In this document: piece by piece, positions 28,236-54,304 of the stretch
Layout: the number at the start of each line of letters is the position of its first letter
Numbering within the stretch: the first letter of the stretch is position 1
Origin: Methanosarcina barkeri str. Wiesmoor
GTDB taxonomy: Archaea; Halobacteriota; Methanosarcinia; Methanosarcinales; Methanosarcinaceae
NCBI RefSeq assembly: GCF_000969985.1
Contig: NZ_CP009526.1
Span: 3,782,001 to 3,846,000 of the forward strand
Length of the DNA: 64,000 bases
Reading direction: 5' to 3'
Notes under the pieces: generated by a model
The model's database searches: none
The model's input: only the letters and a program-made list of their open reading frames with translations
What the model was told of the DNA's origin: nothing
Program-made: the position numbers and the translations under genes

Positions 28236-28536
28236 ATAAGGATAAGAATAATTAGCCAAAGATTTTTATTTGTAGAAGCTACAAATATTAATCTGTTTAA
28301 TTGTATCTAATTAGTGAGATAAAATATTTCTGAAAAACTTGGAACATTTAGACAAAGTCATTCCATATTAAGAATTACGCAGTTGAACTAAAAATTGGTA
28401 GCATGGAACACTAAACTGCCTAAAGCATAATTCTCTTGGCAAGCTCTCATGTGCTTGGTTTTATATTTCAAATGCGTAACTCCTACGTATATTGCGAATT
28501 GTATCCAGCTAAGATACGAAAATTCCATAATAATTC
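28236..28536 (+). promoter_or_regulatory. Start of the long leader of the first surface gene
   Basis: From about 28240 the sequence (GGATAAGAATAATTAGCC and AAGATTTTTAT) matches the beginnings of the leader modules at 35450 and 45760. It is AT-rich and non-coding and probably carries the promoter of the leader transcript; the exact start cannot be placed. Confidence 0.5.
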
Positions 28537-28652
28537 GGTTGGTCTGACGCTTCAAAAAGGTCCGAAACCTGATTCGATAGCCTCACCATACAAAAAATAA
28601 GGCCCGATTCTTTCGCCCAGAACAACCGCCAACCCCATAAAAACATAGGAGG
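28537..28652 (+). promoter_or_regulatory. Structured RNA motif, copy A (first of a tandem pair)
   Basis: Closing helix GGTTGGTCTG (28537-28546) with CAGAACAACC (28618-28627); hairpin AGGT-CCGAA-ACCT (28558-28570); conserved CTTCAAAAAGGTCCGAA; then AACCCC and a short hairpin region ending CATAGGAGG. No open frame follows directly; the second copy lies 300 nt downstream. Confidence 0.8.
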
Positions 28653-28830
28653 ATCTCAAAAAAGAAACTAAAAGCACTTATTTTCTATACACGGCTCTTG
28701 CCTGAAATTTGTTTTAAACGAACTGAAATTCAGGTATGACCTTCAACAAAGATCTTGACAAGTATTGAAGCATTTTTGCTTAAAGGGCGAATTTTAATTC
28801 GAGCTGTGTTTTTCATATTCGGCATTTTTC

Positions 28831-28925: not shown

Positions 28926-28953
28926 TGAGAATAAAAAACAGAATAACAAAATT

Positions 28954-29091
28954 CAGTCGCTTCCTGCTTTCTTCAAAGGTCCGAAAATCCTTGAACCAAA
29001 AAATTTCCTGCCCGAGCAAACCGATTACCAAATCTTCAGGGGTCCGGAAATTTCCGCGCAGGTAGACTGAACCCCCTATGAAAAATAGGAG
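28954..29091 (+). promoter_or_regulatory. Structured RNA motif, copy B, next to the start of the first surface gene
   Basis: Closing helix CAGTC/GACTG plus CCTGC/GCAGG (28954-28967 with 29058-29069); small hairpin AAGG-TCCGAAAAT-CCTT; conserved TTCCGC; then CCCTATGAAAAATAGG, a hairpin whose 3' arm leads into the AGGAG ribosome binding site for ATG 29102. Confidence 0.8.
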
Positions 29092-29101
29092 AAACGAAAA
29101 T

Positions 29102-35598: not shown

Positions 35599-35654
35599 TT
35601 CAGGAAATATCAAAATTTCCGCAGCATATCTTCCAGATAAACTTTTAAAACTCC

Positions 35655-35770
35655 AGTTGTTCTGACACTTCAAAAAGGTCCGAAACCTTATCTGACTGCA
35701 ATATGAAATTCAAAATGCAGACAGACTCTTCCGCTCAGACCAACTGACAACCCTATGAAAATACAGGAGG
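35655..35770 (+). promoter_or_regulatory. Structured RNA motif, copy C (first of a tandem pair)
   Basis: Closing helix AGTTGTTCTGA (35655-35665) with TCAGACCAACT (35735-35745); small hairpin AGGT-CCGAA-ACCT; variable hairpin CTGCA/TGCAG (35696-35700 and 35716-35720); CCGC; then AACCCTATGAAAATACAGGAGG. Confidence 0.82.
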
Positions 35771-35956
35771 TCTTCAAAAAGATAAGAAATTGAATACTTA
35801 TTTTTCTTTACACGGTTCTATGCCTGAATTTGTTCCATAAACTGGAAAGTCAGATGCGTTCTTCAGCAAAAATAGTCATCAGTAATCTATAATTTTTGCA
35901 TAAAGAGTATTTTTAATTTTTAATTAGAGTCGTGTTTTATCAGATCAGCATTTTTC

Positions 35957-36042: not shown

Positions 36043-36067
36043 TAAGACTCAAAAACAGGAAAAAATC

Positions 36068-36216
36068 CAGCCTTTCCTGCTTTCTTCAAAAGTCCGAAAA
36101 ATCCCTAAACCAAAAAATTCCCCCGTCCGATCAAACCTCCCTTTGAACATTCGGGAGACAGGATATTTCCGCGCAGGCAAGCTGAAACCCACTAAAAGTC
36201 CCAGAAAAATAGGAGA
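36068..36216 (+). promoter_or_regulatory. Structured RNA motif, copy D, next to the start of the 36.2-kb gene
   Basis: Closing helix CAGC/GCTG plus CCTGC/GCAGG (36068-36080 with 36173-36184); TCTTCAAAAGTCCGAA; TTCCGCGCAGG; then AATAGGAG, the ribosome binding site for ATG 36226. Confidence 0.8.
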
Positions 36217-36225
36217 AATAAAACT

Positions 36226-45779: not shown

Positions 45780-45907
45780 AAGATTTTTATCTATAGAACT
45801 CAAAAATAATCAATTAGTTCAATCAGATACAATTAGTTCAATCAGATACATTTCAGGAAATATCAAAATTTCCGCAGCATATGTTCCAGATAAATTTTTA
45901 AAACTCC

Positions 45908-46023
45908 AGTTGTTCTGGCACTTCAAAAAGGTCCGAAACCTTATCTGACTGCAATATGAAATTCAAAATGCAGACAGGCTCTTCCGCTCAGACCAACTGA
46001 CAACCCTATGAAAATACAGGAGG
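45908..46023 (+). promoter_or_regulatory. Structured RNA motif, copy E (first of a tandem pair)
   Basis: Nearly identical to copy C: AGTTGTTCTG (45908-45917) with CAGACCAACT (45989-45998), TCCGAA-loop hairpin, CTGCA/TGCAG hairpin, and AACCCTATGAAAATACAGGAGG. Confidence 0.82.
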
Positions 46024-46321
46024 TCTTCAAAAAGATAAGAAATTGAGTACTTATTTTTCTTTACACGGTTCTATGCCTGAATTTGTTCCATAAACTGGAA
46101 AGTCAGGTGCGTTCTTCAGCAAAAAATATTCATTAGTAATCTATAATTTTTGCCTAAAGAGTATTTTTAATTTTTAATTAGAGTCGTGTTTTATCAGATC
46201 AGCATTTTTCCGGATTTTGAAACGCTGTATCTTCTGCATGATCCCCGGAATTTCCAAAAACAATTACTATAAAGCCGGTTGATCCCCAAAAATCCGTAAG
46301 ACTCAAAAACAGGAAAAAATC

Positions 46322-46468
46322 CAGCCTTTCCTGCTTTCTTCAAAAGTCCGAAAAATCCCTAAACCAAAAAATTCCCCCATCCGATCAAACCTCCCTTTGA
46401 ACATTCGGGAGACCCGATATTTCCGCGCAGGCAAGCTGAAACCATTAAAAGTCCCAGAAAAATAGGAG
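46322..46468 (+). promoter_or_regulatory. Structured RNA motif, copy F, next to the start of the 46.5-kb gene
   Basis: Nearly identical to copy D: CAGC/GCTG plus CCTGC/GCAGG, TTCCGC, and AATAGGAG before ATG 46479. The middle domain also recurs at about 46205-46300. Confidence 0.8.
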
Positions 46469-46478
46469 AAATAAAACT

Positions 46479-48410: not shown

Positions 48411-48521
48411 ACTTTCCGCAGGTGTGACAAGAAGCTATGGTGTGAATTGCAGAAACGCTACCTTTTCCATTTGAGGTAATCCTATTGTGACATGCATAAA
48501 TGGTAACTTTTGTGTGGTGAA
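48411..48521. repeat. 111-bp repeat, inverted copy at 54141-54254
   Basis: Begins ACTTTCCGCAGGTG and contains CTACCTTTTCCATTTGAG and GTGACATGCATAAA. The complement of 54141-54254 follows it closely. Both copies lie just behind the stop of a surface-protein gene and point away from it. The rest of 48522-48757 is AT-rich leader of the next gene. Confidence 0.75.
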
Positions 48522-51700: not shown

Positions 51701-52660
51701 GGCAATGCACCATTGACAGTCAATTTCACCGACCAATCCACAGGTACACCGACCTCCTGGCTCTGGGACTTCGGGGATGGTACTAACGTTACCGAGCAGA
51801 ACCCTGCTCACACTTACACTGCAACCGGTACCTACACTGTCAACCTTACGGTTTCCAACGAGGATGGAAGCGATTCGGAGGTAAAAACTGGGTACATTAA
51901 GGTCTCCAGTCAATCTTCAGCAAAGCCAGTAGCTGCATTTTCTGCATCTCCTACTTCAGGAAAAACACCATTAAACGTTACCTTTACTGACACAAGCACT
52001 GGATCCCCAACTTCCTGGTTCTGGAACTTTGGAGACGGGTCAAAGTCATTCCTACAGAATCCGGTTCACAAGTATTCTAAGGCAGGAACATATACTGTTA
52101 ACTTGACAGTAAAGAATGCTAAAGGCAAGAACACGGTAACAAAAACACAATATATAAAAGTGATAACAAAACCTGTGGCAAACTTTTCTGCGAGTCCAAC
52201 ATCAGGAAAAGCACCATTAAAGGTTACTTTTACTGACACAAGCACAGGAATACCTGCTAAATGGAGATGGGACTTTGGAGACGGAGCAAAGTCATTCCAA
52301 CAGAATCCGATTCATAAGTATTCTAAGGCAGGAACATATACTGTTAACTTGACAGTAAAGAATGCTAAAGGCAAGAACACGGTAACAAAAACAGAATATA
52401 TAAAAGTGATAACAAAACCTGTGGCAAACTTTTCTGCGAGTCCAACATCAGGAAAAGCACCATTAAAGGTTACTTTTACTGACACAAGCACAGGAATACC
52501 TGCTAAATGGAGATGGGACTTTGGAGATGGATCAGATTCATTCCACCAGAACCCGATTCACAAGTATTCAAAGGCAGGAACATATACTGTTAACTTAACA
52601 GTAAAGAATGTTAAAGGCAGCAACACGGTAACAAAAACAGAATATATAAAAATTACATAA
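48758..52660 (+). CDS. Giant beta-helix/PKD/PQQ surface protein
   Basis: A 1300-residue protein with signal peptide (KKIHYVCMVALLSTMMLAVA, cleavage after ATT or ASA), beta-helix (about 25-330; CTLRNLILRDIRDCAVIS, NSIIENNVIKNNQYA), three PKD domains (340-605), one PQQ propeller (615-965; starts DDSWYQFHGKVDHLGYSE) and four C-terminal PKD domains. It is a shortened relative of the gene at 38646, lacking the first propeller and second beta-helix. AAGTAAGG lies before the ATG. The last PKD units match those at 34.5-35.2 and 44.5-45.5 kb almost exactly in DNA. No C-terminal anchor is present. A degenerate PKD fragment follows 60 bp downstream. Confidence 0.92.
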   Translation: MKKIHYVCMVALLSTMMLAVAPASATTWDVSTVSELQNAAANAGEGDTIFVHNGNYTLTSTLYLYKSNITFTGESKEGVVLLRDNDFITIGSNGGPAPGCIVENMTLLGDITSTSGVFGISVRSPDCTLRNLILRDIRDCAVISSNSEDCSGLIISNCTFDNSGTENFAISILATNSIIENNVIKNNQYAYGPLCVQAQNVTVSNNLFMNNPYAFYLVYADNSLVSGNNMVSTGNILIYDPGEAIVWQLNNFSESIVSNEWAGPLPSVTYWNSTEPVEYTYNGATYTGYPGNYWGAAYTGTDADGNGIGDTPYEVPGGLGTDYSPLISPKENYEILEPPVANFNAAPLSGNVPLAVQFTDQSTGSGISSWTWDFDGDGNVDSTEQNPSHTYNSTGTYTVNLTVTGQLGSDSKTKADCITVREPAEPPIADFSADPLSGPIPLEVQFTDLSTGEGIDSWSWDFDSNGTVDSTEQNPTFTYSEIGNYTVTLNVTGTGGSDSKVKADYIVSEEAEPAFPTAGFSASARDGAVPFTVKFTDSSENTIDWAWDFDGDGNVDSTEQNPLYTYYTEGNYTVKLTASNGNGSDVLEIPDMITVASERPAPPDDSWYQFHGKVDHLGYSENGPKTNRTEWISESVTDAIGSSSPVVAEGKIFVICGGAEIEEETTGIVQLVALNESTGDIAWNTSIPETVYGSWASPAYDDGMVFTATGPELGCYNAETGEKIWCFNDTVGTLGAVNGGPAIADGMVIFSDWDGHHYYCLDEYTGYLLWSFVVVGDAQSVPAYADGKFYLTGWTYTQGYAYCVDATTGEQLWTINVERSFCGSPAYKDGVLYLTTYNFSGDGDLFALNATDGSIIWQQTVQRTDSTPALAYGNVYVSGGCSGFSDKETYCFNATTGEPVWSIPSIGDWTWSVAVADGLAYVGGYALDAFTGDVVWNSPYGGGTPALSDGMFFSIGSSKKVYAFKDSLSSPIANFSADMTSGNAPLTVNFTDQSTGTPTSWLWDFGDGTNVTEQNPAHTYTATGTYTVNLTVSNEDGSDSEVKTGYIKVSSQSSAKPVAAFSASPTSGKTPLNVTFTDTSTGSPTSWFWNFGDGSKSFLQNPVHKYSKAGTYTVNLTVKNAKGKNTVTKTQYIKVITKPVANFSASPTSGKAPLKVTFTDTSTGIPAKWRWDFGDGAKSFQQNPIHKYSKAGTYTVNLTVKNAKGKNTVTKTEYIKVITKPVANFSASPTSGKAPLKVTFTDTSTGIPAKWRWDFGDGSDSFHQNPIHKYSKAGTYTVNLTVKNVKGSNTVTKTEYIKIT

Positions 52661-52721
52661 AATTGTAACAAAAACAGTTGCTTAATTCTCTGCAACTCAA
52701 ACATCTAAAAAACTTCATAAG

Positions 52722-52880
52722 CGATAGGATTTGCTGACAAAAGTACAGGCTCACCAACTTCCTAGAAATGGAGTTTTTTAGATGGAACAACTTCAATAGA
52801 AAAAAATCCAGAACGTCAGTACTTGAAGGGAGGAAACTATAAGAAATGAATAAACCTTAGATTAAAAAAGAGAAAAAATC
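52722..52880 (+). pseudogene. Remnant of a PKD domain
   Basis: The forward frame reads IGFADKSTGSPTS, then a TAG where the PKD consensus has Trp, then KWSFLDGTTSIEKNPERQYL and KGGNYKK before a stop. It resembles a PKD domain (TDxSTGxPTSWxWxFGDG...NPxHTY) and its sequence is not one of the recently homogenised units, so it is the tail of a different, lost surface gene. Confidence 0.7.
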
Positions 52881-53034
52881 AAGGCTAAAGGGTTGAGAGA
52901 TCATTGGCAAAGTCTGACAAAACAATTCTTTGGCCCTGTTGACCAGAGTTGAAGGCCAACTTTGGAATGAAAATAAGAACTCTTTGCCCAACTCTCAATT
53001 ATTCTCTGCATTTTCTTCAATTATCTAGAATAAC

Positions 53035-53140
53035 GGTTAGCCTGCCACTTCAAGGAGTCCGAATTCCTTTCCTGGGTACACCACTTATGGGTACACAGGT
53101 TCCGCACAGGCTAACCTAACCCCTATGAAAACATAGGAGG
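53035..53140 (+). promoter_or_regulatory. Structured RNA motif, copy G (orphan)
   Basis: Closing helix GGTTAGCCTG (53035-53044) perfectly complementary to CAGGCTAACC (53107-53116); hairpin AAGGA-loop TCCGAA-TCCTT; hairpin CCTG/CAGG with GTAC pairs; TTCCGC; perfect hairpin CCTATG-AAAA-CATAGG followed by AGG. Only an ACG and then TAG follow in frame, so no gene is attached any more. Confidence 0.8.
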
Positions 53141-53229
53141 ATTTATATAACGAAATAGAGAAATATATCTTTTTCGGTAACTACAGTAGTCCGATTGAGG
53201 ATCTCAAATTAGCTTTTAAAACTCTAATT

Positions 53230-53775
53230 TAATAGATATCGAGAAAAAGTACCTTTACTTGTTCCAGAATAAGTTTAGCTCCATCTCGATCTTGAATATT
53301 CGCTGAATGAACTATAACTATCAACAATAGTCCTATTGTATCCACCAGAATATGGCGCTTCCTTCCTTTAATTTTCTTGGCGGCATCATAGCGCCACGTA
53401 TTCCTGGAGTTTCTGTAGTTTTAACGAATTGACTATATAAAATAGCTGTACTAGGTTCTGATTCTTTGCCATATGTAATTCTCAGTTCAGTTCTCAGTGC
53501 AGCATTCATACGTTCCTAAAATCCAGTAAGTCGCTAAAAACGGAAATAGTGGTACATAGTTTTCCACGGTGGAAATTCGTGGGATAGCATTCGCCAGGCA
53601 CAACCAAACGTAACAAATAAAATACGGCATTCAAGACTTCGCGATAAGGATGAAAGCGTTTTCTACCTTTGTTCGTCCTAGAATTATGGAAATAAAGTTT
53701 GATTAATTCCCATTCTAGATCAAATAAATCACTAGGATAAGGAATTCTTTTAGTTTGTTCAGATCCTAGTGTCAT
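53230..53775 (-). pseudogene. Decayed IS5-type (IS427 group) transposase
   Basis: Minus strand. The N-terminal part from ATG 53775 (IPYPSDLFDLEWELIKLYF, HPYREVLNAVFYLLR) is the DUF4096 region of IS427-group transposases. A later segment in other frames has MNAALRTELRITYGKESEPS, then [20 protein letters not shown] and [16 protein letters not shown], the DDE-domain start of the same family. At least two frameshifts and an internal gap separate them, and the catalytic C-terminus is missing. Terminal inverted repeats were not identified. Confidence 0.8.
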
Positions 53776-54304
53776 GGCAACTTAATTATGATACGTTAAT
53801 ACATAGACAACACCTCATTCGTAGCCCTTTTCTTAAATATAATGATTCATAACTAAATTCCTTAGACACTAGCGAACAATATGATTACGTGTAGTATTTA
53901 ATTTTAAGACGGCCTTTTAGAAGCCATCTATAAACCGAGAATCATATGTCCATTTGCTATAATGTCCGCAGACCCACTATGTCCTGATTCTGAACCTTTT
54001 GGTTTAAGCGTGCCAACCTGCTTTCGCTTATTCGACTTCACAATTCTTATGATGGTTCGTTCACTTTACGTTCTTCATAGTATTCTTATCCTAACCAATT
54101 ATCAAAGCCAGGTTCCTTGAGTCCTTGATATTGTCGTGTGAGCTTTACACAAACGTTACCATTTTATGCATGTCACAGTAAGATTATCTCAAATGGAAAA
54201 GGTAGCGTGGAAACGTAATTCATATTATAGCTCCTTGTAGCACCTGCGGAAAGTGAGTTACAAGACCACTCACCTGTTAGCTTGTAACAAGTACTGGTCC
54301 TTCA
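53776..54304. other. Gene-free stretch with inverted copy of the 111-bp repeat
   Basis: Contains the second copy of the 48.4-kb repeat (54141-54254, opposite orientation) and a perfect 8-bp hairpin GTTACAAG/CTTGTAAC at about 54257-54288, which could end the transcript of the minus gene that stops at 54305. No coding frame is supported. Confidence 0.55.

Follow-up and report, generated by a model that had tools for sequence, protein, structure and literature searches.

A folded RNA family of Methanosarcina and a probably displaced copy of its G subtype in Methanosarcina barkeri str. Wiesmoor

Tandem riboswitches and structured leaders exist as a general kind of regulatory element. Among RNAs that are made separately from the messages concerned, EutX/Rli55 of Enterococcus faecalis and Listeria is a noncoding RNA described as sequestering EutV (PMC5821096), and a small RNA, sRNA162, is described from Methanosarcina mazei (PMC3510493). 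The element considered here lies in a 64,000-nt stretch of Methanosarcina barkeri str. Wiesmoor DNA (contig NZ_CP009526.1, positions 3,782,001 to 3,846,000; hereafter the window). A preliminary description made from the letters of this stretch had seen in it an orphan RNA motif in front of a surface gene lost through insertion-sequence activity or, alternatively, a small RNA acting in trans. The motif is indeed an orphan with mobile DNA close by, but no reading frame of at least 25 codons follows any of the eight copies of its subtype, and comparison of the loci indicates that a displaced 3′ fragment of a G-type RNA gene is more likely than a leader whose protein gene was lost.

The fold of copy G and its RNA family

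The window copy, which we call copy G, has the following parts:

53024-53176, plus strand: conserved G unit, the stretch common to other G copies (its ends differ by copy)
53035-53116, plus strand: three-way-junction fold, from the window fold and family covariation
53035-53044 paired with 53107-53116: helix P1, 10 bp, GGTTAGCCTG with CAGGCTAACC
53052-53058 paired with 53063-53069: helix P2, with the GTCCGAA loop region
within 53071-53099: helix P3; joining bases CTTCAA and TTCCGC
53120-53140, plus strand: hairpin CCTATG-AAAA-CATAGG, overlapping the SD-like AGGAGG at 53135-53140
53150-53158, plus strand: ACG-AAA-TAG (ACG at 53150-53152), at the site of the ATG in B copies; no gene
53170-53174, plus strand: U5 tract, terminator-like

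The position of the motif, its P1 helix and its perfect hairpin with AGGAGG were all confirmed. The fold reaches -44.1 kcal/mol with a z of -4.52 and none of 200 shuffles as good, while the z values of the other six copies in the window range from -1.04 to -2.56, making copy G the best folded of the seven; CCTATGAAAACATAGG occurs exactly once in the 64-kb window, starting at 53122. From P1 to P1′ the predicted energy (-33.4 kcal/mol) is that of the most stable of the eight G copies. However, a helix alone is weak proof, since lone perfect 10-bp helices with loops of 40-90 nt are common in the window (25, where 20 first-order simulations averaged 4.95), and the argument therefore rests on comparison and covariation.

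The covariance model, R2, was built from 24 copies (six G and 18 A) with its structure set by hand. Because the window copy is among these 24, it fits the model by construction (53031-53143, 87.8 bits, E 8.1e-18); its resemblance in DNA to the other seven G copies does not depend on R2. The stretch 53024-53176 shares 92% identity with the second G copy of the same genome (G000b; G000 being the genome of the window), and 53030-53176 shares 93% with the G copy of genome G003. At E <=0.001, matches to R2 were found in six of 30 Methanosarcina genomes. Across the order, with filters stricter than those of the genus search, the same six of 185 genomes and one of 27 genera had matches, and across a sample of the phylum, again with the stricter filters, five of 392 genomes and one of 136 genera. 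Within the genomes searched, the family is confined to one genus, Methanosarcina.

When the threshold was set at E <=0.1, 70 matches were obtained from six Methanosarcina genomes (24 sources, namely the window and 23 fetched loci). Among these 70, 24 of the 28 pairs had changed on both sides, including all 10 pairs of P1, with 191 double-change cells observed against 74.1 in shuffles and 82.0% of cells pairing against 73.6%, in an alignment that was fitted to the model and leans towards structure. Sliding the partners by 1-3 columns brought pairing down to 28-44%. Within the G copies alone the covariation is slight (two pairs, and three further pair types against 5.0 in shuffles). On this comparative evidence the element in the window is a genuine folded RNA, restricted to some Methanosarcina. 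In A copies the GTCCGAA loop has a G-C closing pair; we take it to resemble the tRNA T-loop, a likeness that would favour a compact tertiary fold.

A search of the whole window against Rfam 15 gave a group II intron elsewhere as its sole match and none on copy G; seven loci with other copies gave none, and the four weak matches returned for 52900-53300 at E <=10 had E values of at least 4.9 and were all far below the gathering scores. Among the titles listed in literature searches, none names this RNA element. A virus-borne element was also considered: 23 viral stretches fit a loose pattern and four of them reach 22.8 bits with the model, but we took these as chance since the two examined sit inside long open frames.

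Leader copies and noncoding G units

By a rule of our own, based on length and the P1 string, the 70 rows fall into 39 A, 23 B and eight G copies, the window copy being a G. Among the 39 A rows are a partial match of 64 nt (G001:5300442) and a weak one (G000:3848072, 19.2 bits) which is probably a decayed B, and a B-like match seen by eye in locus L034 near 10828 stands outside the 70. The B copies are found directly ahead of the ATG of a surface gene in all 23 cases, and the A copies are mostly upstream of B. Three A-B pairs of this kind lie in the window, each ahead of a gene (29102, 36226 and 46479):

28533-28655, plus strand: sister copy, A subtype (R2 match)
28951-29095, plus strand: sister copy, B subtype, before ATG 29102 (R2 match)
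35651-35773, plus strand: sister copy, A subtype (R2 match)
36065-36219, plus strand: sister copy, B subtype, before ATG 36226 (R2 match)
45904-46026, plus strand: sister copy, A subtype (R2 match)
46319-46472, plus strand: sister copy, B subtype, before ATG 46479 (R2 match)

A frame of at least 25 codons opens after every B copy (23/23) and after none of the 39 A or eight G copies, although an SD-like site is retained in A and G despite there being no gene. As to the marks of a riboswitch, the family has a covarying fold and B has the leader position (23/23), while G, the window copy included, leads no gene (0/8). In copy G itself no frame of at least 25 codons starts 3-16 nt past the SD-like site, and the earlier reading of ACG followed by an in-frame TAG, with nothing encoded, was upheld. 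Since the A members in the window are likewise without an ORF, copy G is not exceptional in having none. The same ACG-then-stop is found at the same position in four of the eight G copies, and a fifth copy has ACG and a frame open for 21 codons, so the lack of coding predates the insertion of mobile DNA.

By eye, the sequence that follows AGGAGG in the three A copies of the window, which have no ORF, is loosely like a signal peptide without a start. A leader peptide after A was set aside, the frame shifting from copy to copy (by eye).

Downstream of the hairpin, a run of at least four T occurs within the next 60 nt in all eight G copies, in 38 of 39 A and in six of 23 B, compared with 45% of 418 background windows. 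Two such runs within 70 nt are present in six of the eight G copies; the window copy and one copy of G001 each have a single run. Archaeal terminator signals have been reported to be tracts of four to seven U, as shown in Methanococcus maripaludis (PMC8716108).

Upstream, a conserved TATA-like block with the core CAAACTTATTATCnTTTTTGTTAGATTTATATC was found 366-1167 nt before seven of the eight G copies. The block has matches in eight of 30 genomes elsewhere in the genus, and at several other places it stands upstream of a 122-aa ORF, there reading TTTATATAAA; its placement before that ORF points to a promoter-like role, and the block may mark a wider set of co-regulated genes. The 122-aa ORF (L094, L096 and L097; genomes G029, G003 and G000) begins MAKVEKVLLLL and in L097 lies within a 145-aa frame. 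The A copies have a block of their own, TAAGAATAATTAGCCAAAGATTTTTAT, which differs from the G block and, with up to six mismatches and within 1,600 nt, stands before 33 of 39 A copies and none of the eight G. An A copy is located within 1.3 kb downstream of G on the same strand in five of eight cases, and in all five the A block sits between the two.

When we compared distant G loci, the conserved portions stood out from their surroundings. For G003 against G004, identity is 85-88% in the G block, in the 290 nt that follow it and in the core, 60% in the 390 nt outside the block, and 73% in the 150 nt before the core, a value that ranges over 70-74% across the four distant pairs. The other three distant pairs are similar (core 81-95%, outside 56-60%), but in the two that involve G027 the 290 nt after the block are just 72-74% identical. 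In the close pairs, G000b-G003 and G004-G027, the core is no better conserved than the flanks. The interval from the upstream block to G was searched for a conserved ORF, and none of at least 60 aa lies wholly inside it except a 67-aa frame in one G001 copy; the short frames differ. The preliminary description had proposed a comparison with related strains, with a sister locus lacking a coding gene after the motif as one part of what would speak against it. G003 and G004 fit that part, since no coding gene directly follows the motif there and the next ORF is convergent, although these are other G loci and not the window locus.

The features expected of a stand-alone gene, as inferred from sequence, are the block in seven of eight G copies, the lack of a frame of at least 25 codons in all eight and a U-tract in all eight. 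The G units look like stand-alone noncoding RNA genes that carry the fold of the leaders, and we read G as a noncoding RNA gene, presumably transcribed, of about 0.5-0.6 kb in most copies.

The window copy beside mobile DNA

Downstream of copy G, the window contains a succession of mobile-element debris:

53195-53233, unstranded: fragment with three further occurrences in the genome, probably the end of a mobile element
53506-53775, minus strand: IS4/5-type transposase remnant, 89 aa (Pfam DUF4096, 30 bits, E 6.4e-7)
53917-54265, unstranded: group II intron remnant (RF02012, 35.5 bits; match at 54056-54204, minus strand)

Mobile DNA starts about 20 nt past the conserved unit and about 55 nt past the hairpin, with the 53195 fragment, alongside which a transposase-like frame is seen by eye at two of its three other places. 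The DUF4096 score of 30 bits is below the curated cut-off of 34.3, and we counted this feature as a remnant and no intact insertion sequence; similar remnants occur elsewhere in the genome. The claim that an IS5-type remnant follows within 100 bp holds only if the debris from 53195 is counted, but the transposase remnant itself is about 370 nt away from the hairpin. The group II intron remnant is 89% identical to G000:C2:3942187-3942531.

Several observations concern the surroundings. In comparison with locus L098, the IS4/5 remnant is interrupted by a piece of about 107 bp (53766-53872) whose inverted ends are 33 nt long and 73% complementary, and a related piece is present in L101. An inverted pair of group II intron-like stretches, 48411-48515 and 54147-54254 (83% identical), flanks a 1300-aa PKD gene together with copy G, and similar sequences are found next to this genome's second G locus. 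Past the stop of the 1300-aa gene there is a degenerate PKD-like repeat (52661-52843), followed by a stretch (52853-52965) that is conserved downstream of PKD genes in other genomes.

Comparison of the window copy with the seven other G copies found no colinear similarity beyond -19 to +167 of 53031. The syntenic group G000b, G003, G004 and G027 aligns mutually over about 1.5 kb upstream. The G block is absent within 1,600 nt upstream of the window copy and from the whole window, which makes this copy the sole G of eight without it, and no separate A(-B) array lies within 1.3 kb downstream, where five of the eight have an A. In G001, three genes on the minus strand, for a protein of about 400 aa, a PQQ-repeat protein of 497 aa and a protein named CobN-like by similarity, come before G, A, B and a gene. 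Here the same three neighbours come before A, a weak B-like match and the gene, whereas G is found on the opposite side of them, at 12.6 kb from that A. The diverged A and weak B-like match before a surface gene (G000:C2:3847658-3848189; L070:1658-2189) lie just past the window end, upstream of the window's CobN-like gene and in opposite orientation to it.

From this neighbour order it would appear that G moved or is an extra copy, with its would-be gene array still present. Thus we replaced the notion of a lost gene by that of a displaced element. The intact fold speaks against a copy long dead, being unlike the outcome of prolonged decay, and a recent move explains the copy most easily. The window copy is probably silent, or made solely by read-through from the gene ending at 52660.

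A different reading would treat G, A and B as one long leader running from the G block, its U-tracts serving as attenuators, and the window copy as a stub from which A, B and the gene were lost. We think this possible but rather doubtful: the position of A on the same strand after five of the eight G copies, the fold and hairpin common to all three subtypes, and U-tracts that could equally be read as attenuators or as ends all agree with it, but a separate upstream block intervenes between G and A in each of the five, G003 and G004 keep G in front of a convergent ORF, and the syntenic A and gene are still in this genome some 12.6 kb off.

For the family, the preliminary alternative of a trans-acting small RNA is a better fit than the lost gene, but it probably does not hold for the window copy. 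That this copy is itself a working trans-acting RNA is improbable: it has the most stable fold among the eight and has kept its U5 tract, but the presumed promoter is absent in it alone, its flank is without homology and the second U-tract is missing. Antisense pairing between G and the leaders was rejected, no duplex signal being found with 18 B leaders of G000 and G001 (z 0.24, from 60 mononucleotide shuffles, a weak control). Finally, it is very improbable that a surface gene started right after the window element and was removed by insertion sequences, since although mobile debris begins at 53195 and B copies do directly precede surface genes, none of the eight G copies in six genomes (nor any of the 39 A) opens a 25-codon frame, the ACG-stop is common to four of the eight and the sequence is of another subtype than B; an insertion sequence would thus not be the cause of the missing gene.

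A proposed decoy and its relation to known systems

We favour a joint reading in which the window copy is a displaced, truncated G, the intact G is a self-contained noncoding unit and its RNA is a decoy for a factor that binds the leaders; we would give the whole about even chances of being right. In such a unit, of which G would be the 3′ part, a TATA-like block of its own would be followed by several hundred noncoding nt, the junction fold, a hairpin masking AGGAGG, and U-tracts. In the leaders, the B hairpin, which overlaps the ribosome-binding site and would mask it, may set the translation start of surface genes, A may set transcription read-through into them, and both could respond to a shared putative binding factor or ligand. 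A separately made G RNA carrying the same site would titrate this factor and so act as a decoy. The window copy would have lost its upstream block and downstream flank via rearrangement and mobile DNA.

A bolder version, which we regard as unlikely, is an archaeal circuit in which many surface-gene leaders share an aptamer-like fold and one or two stand-alone RNA genes per genome supply the decoy, an independent counterpart of EutX, with the window copy as a stranded relic. Given its size, its covariation, its separate stand-alone and leader forms and its absence from Rfam, the family would offer a workable way into the post-transcriptional control of the cell surface in archaea. The copy in the window is a more ordinary find, a displaced element beside mobile DNA.

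Like tandem riboswitches, the A-B leaders are arranged in tandem and have a conserved junction fold in 5′ leaders, with a ribosome-binding site in the adjoining hairpin; however, they are tied to surface genes and not to metabolism, their ligand is putative, and they occur in one genus among the 185 genomes of the order. With sRNA162 of Methanosarcina mazei, G would share being a small RNA of the same genus, but sRNA162 is described as acting on cis- and trans-encoded mRNAs (PMC3510493), whereas G gave no sign of pairing with the 18 B leaders. Among systems known to work, EutX/Rli55 comes closest, a separately made RNA with the binding site of its target leaders, which is what we propose for G. 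As described, EutX joins an AdoCbl riboswitch to the EutV site (PMC5821096), whereas G is archaeal, its transcript, ligand and protein partner are putative, and it has no Rfam relation.
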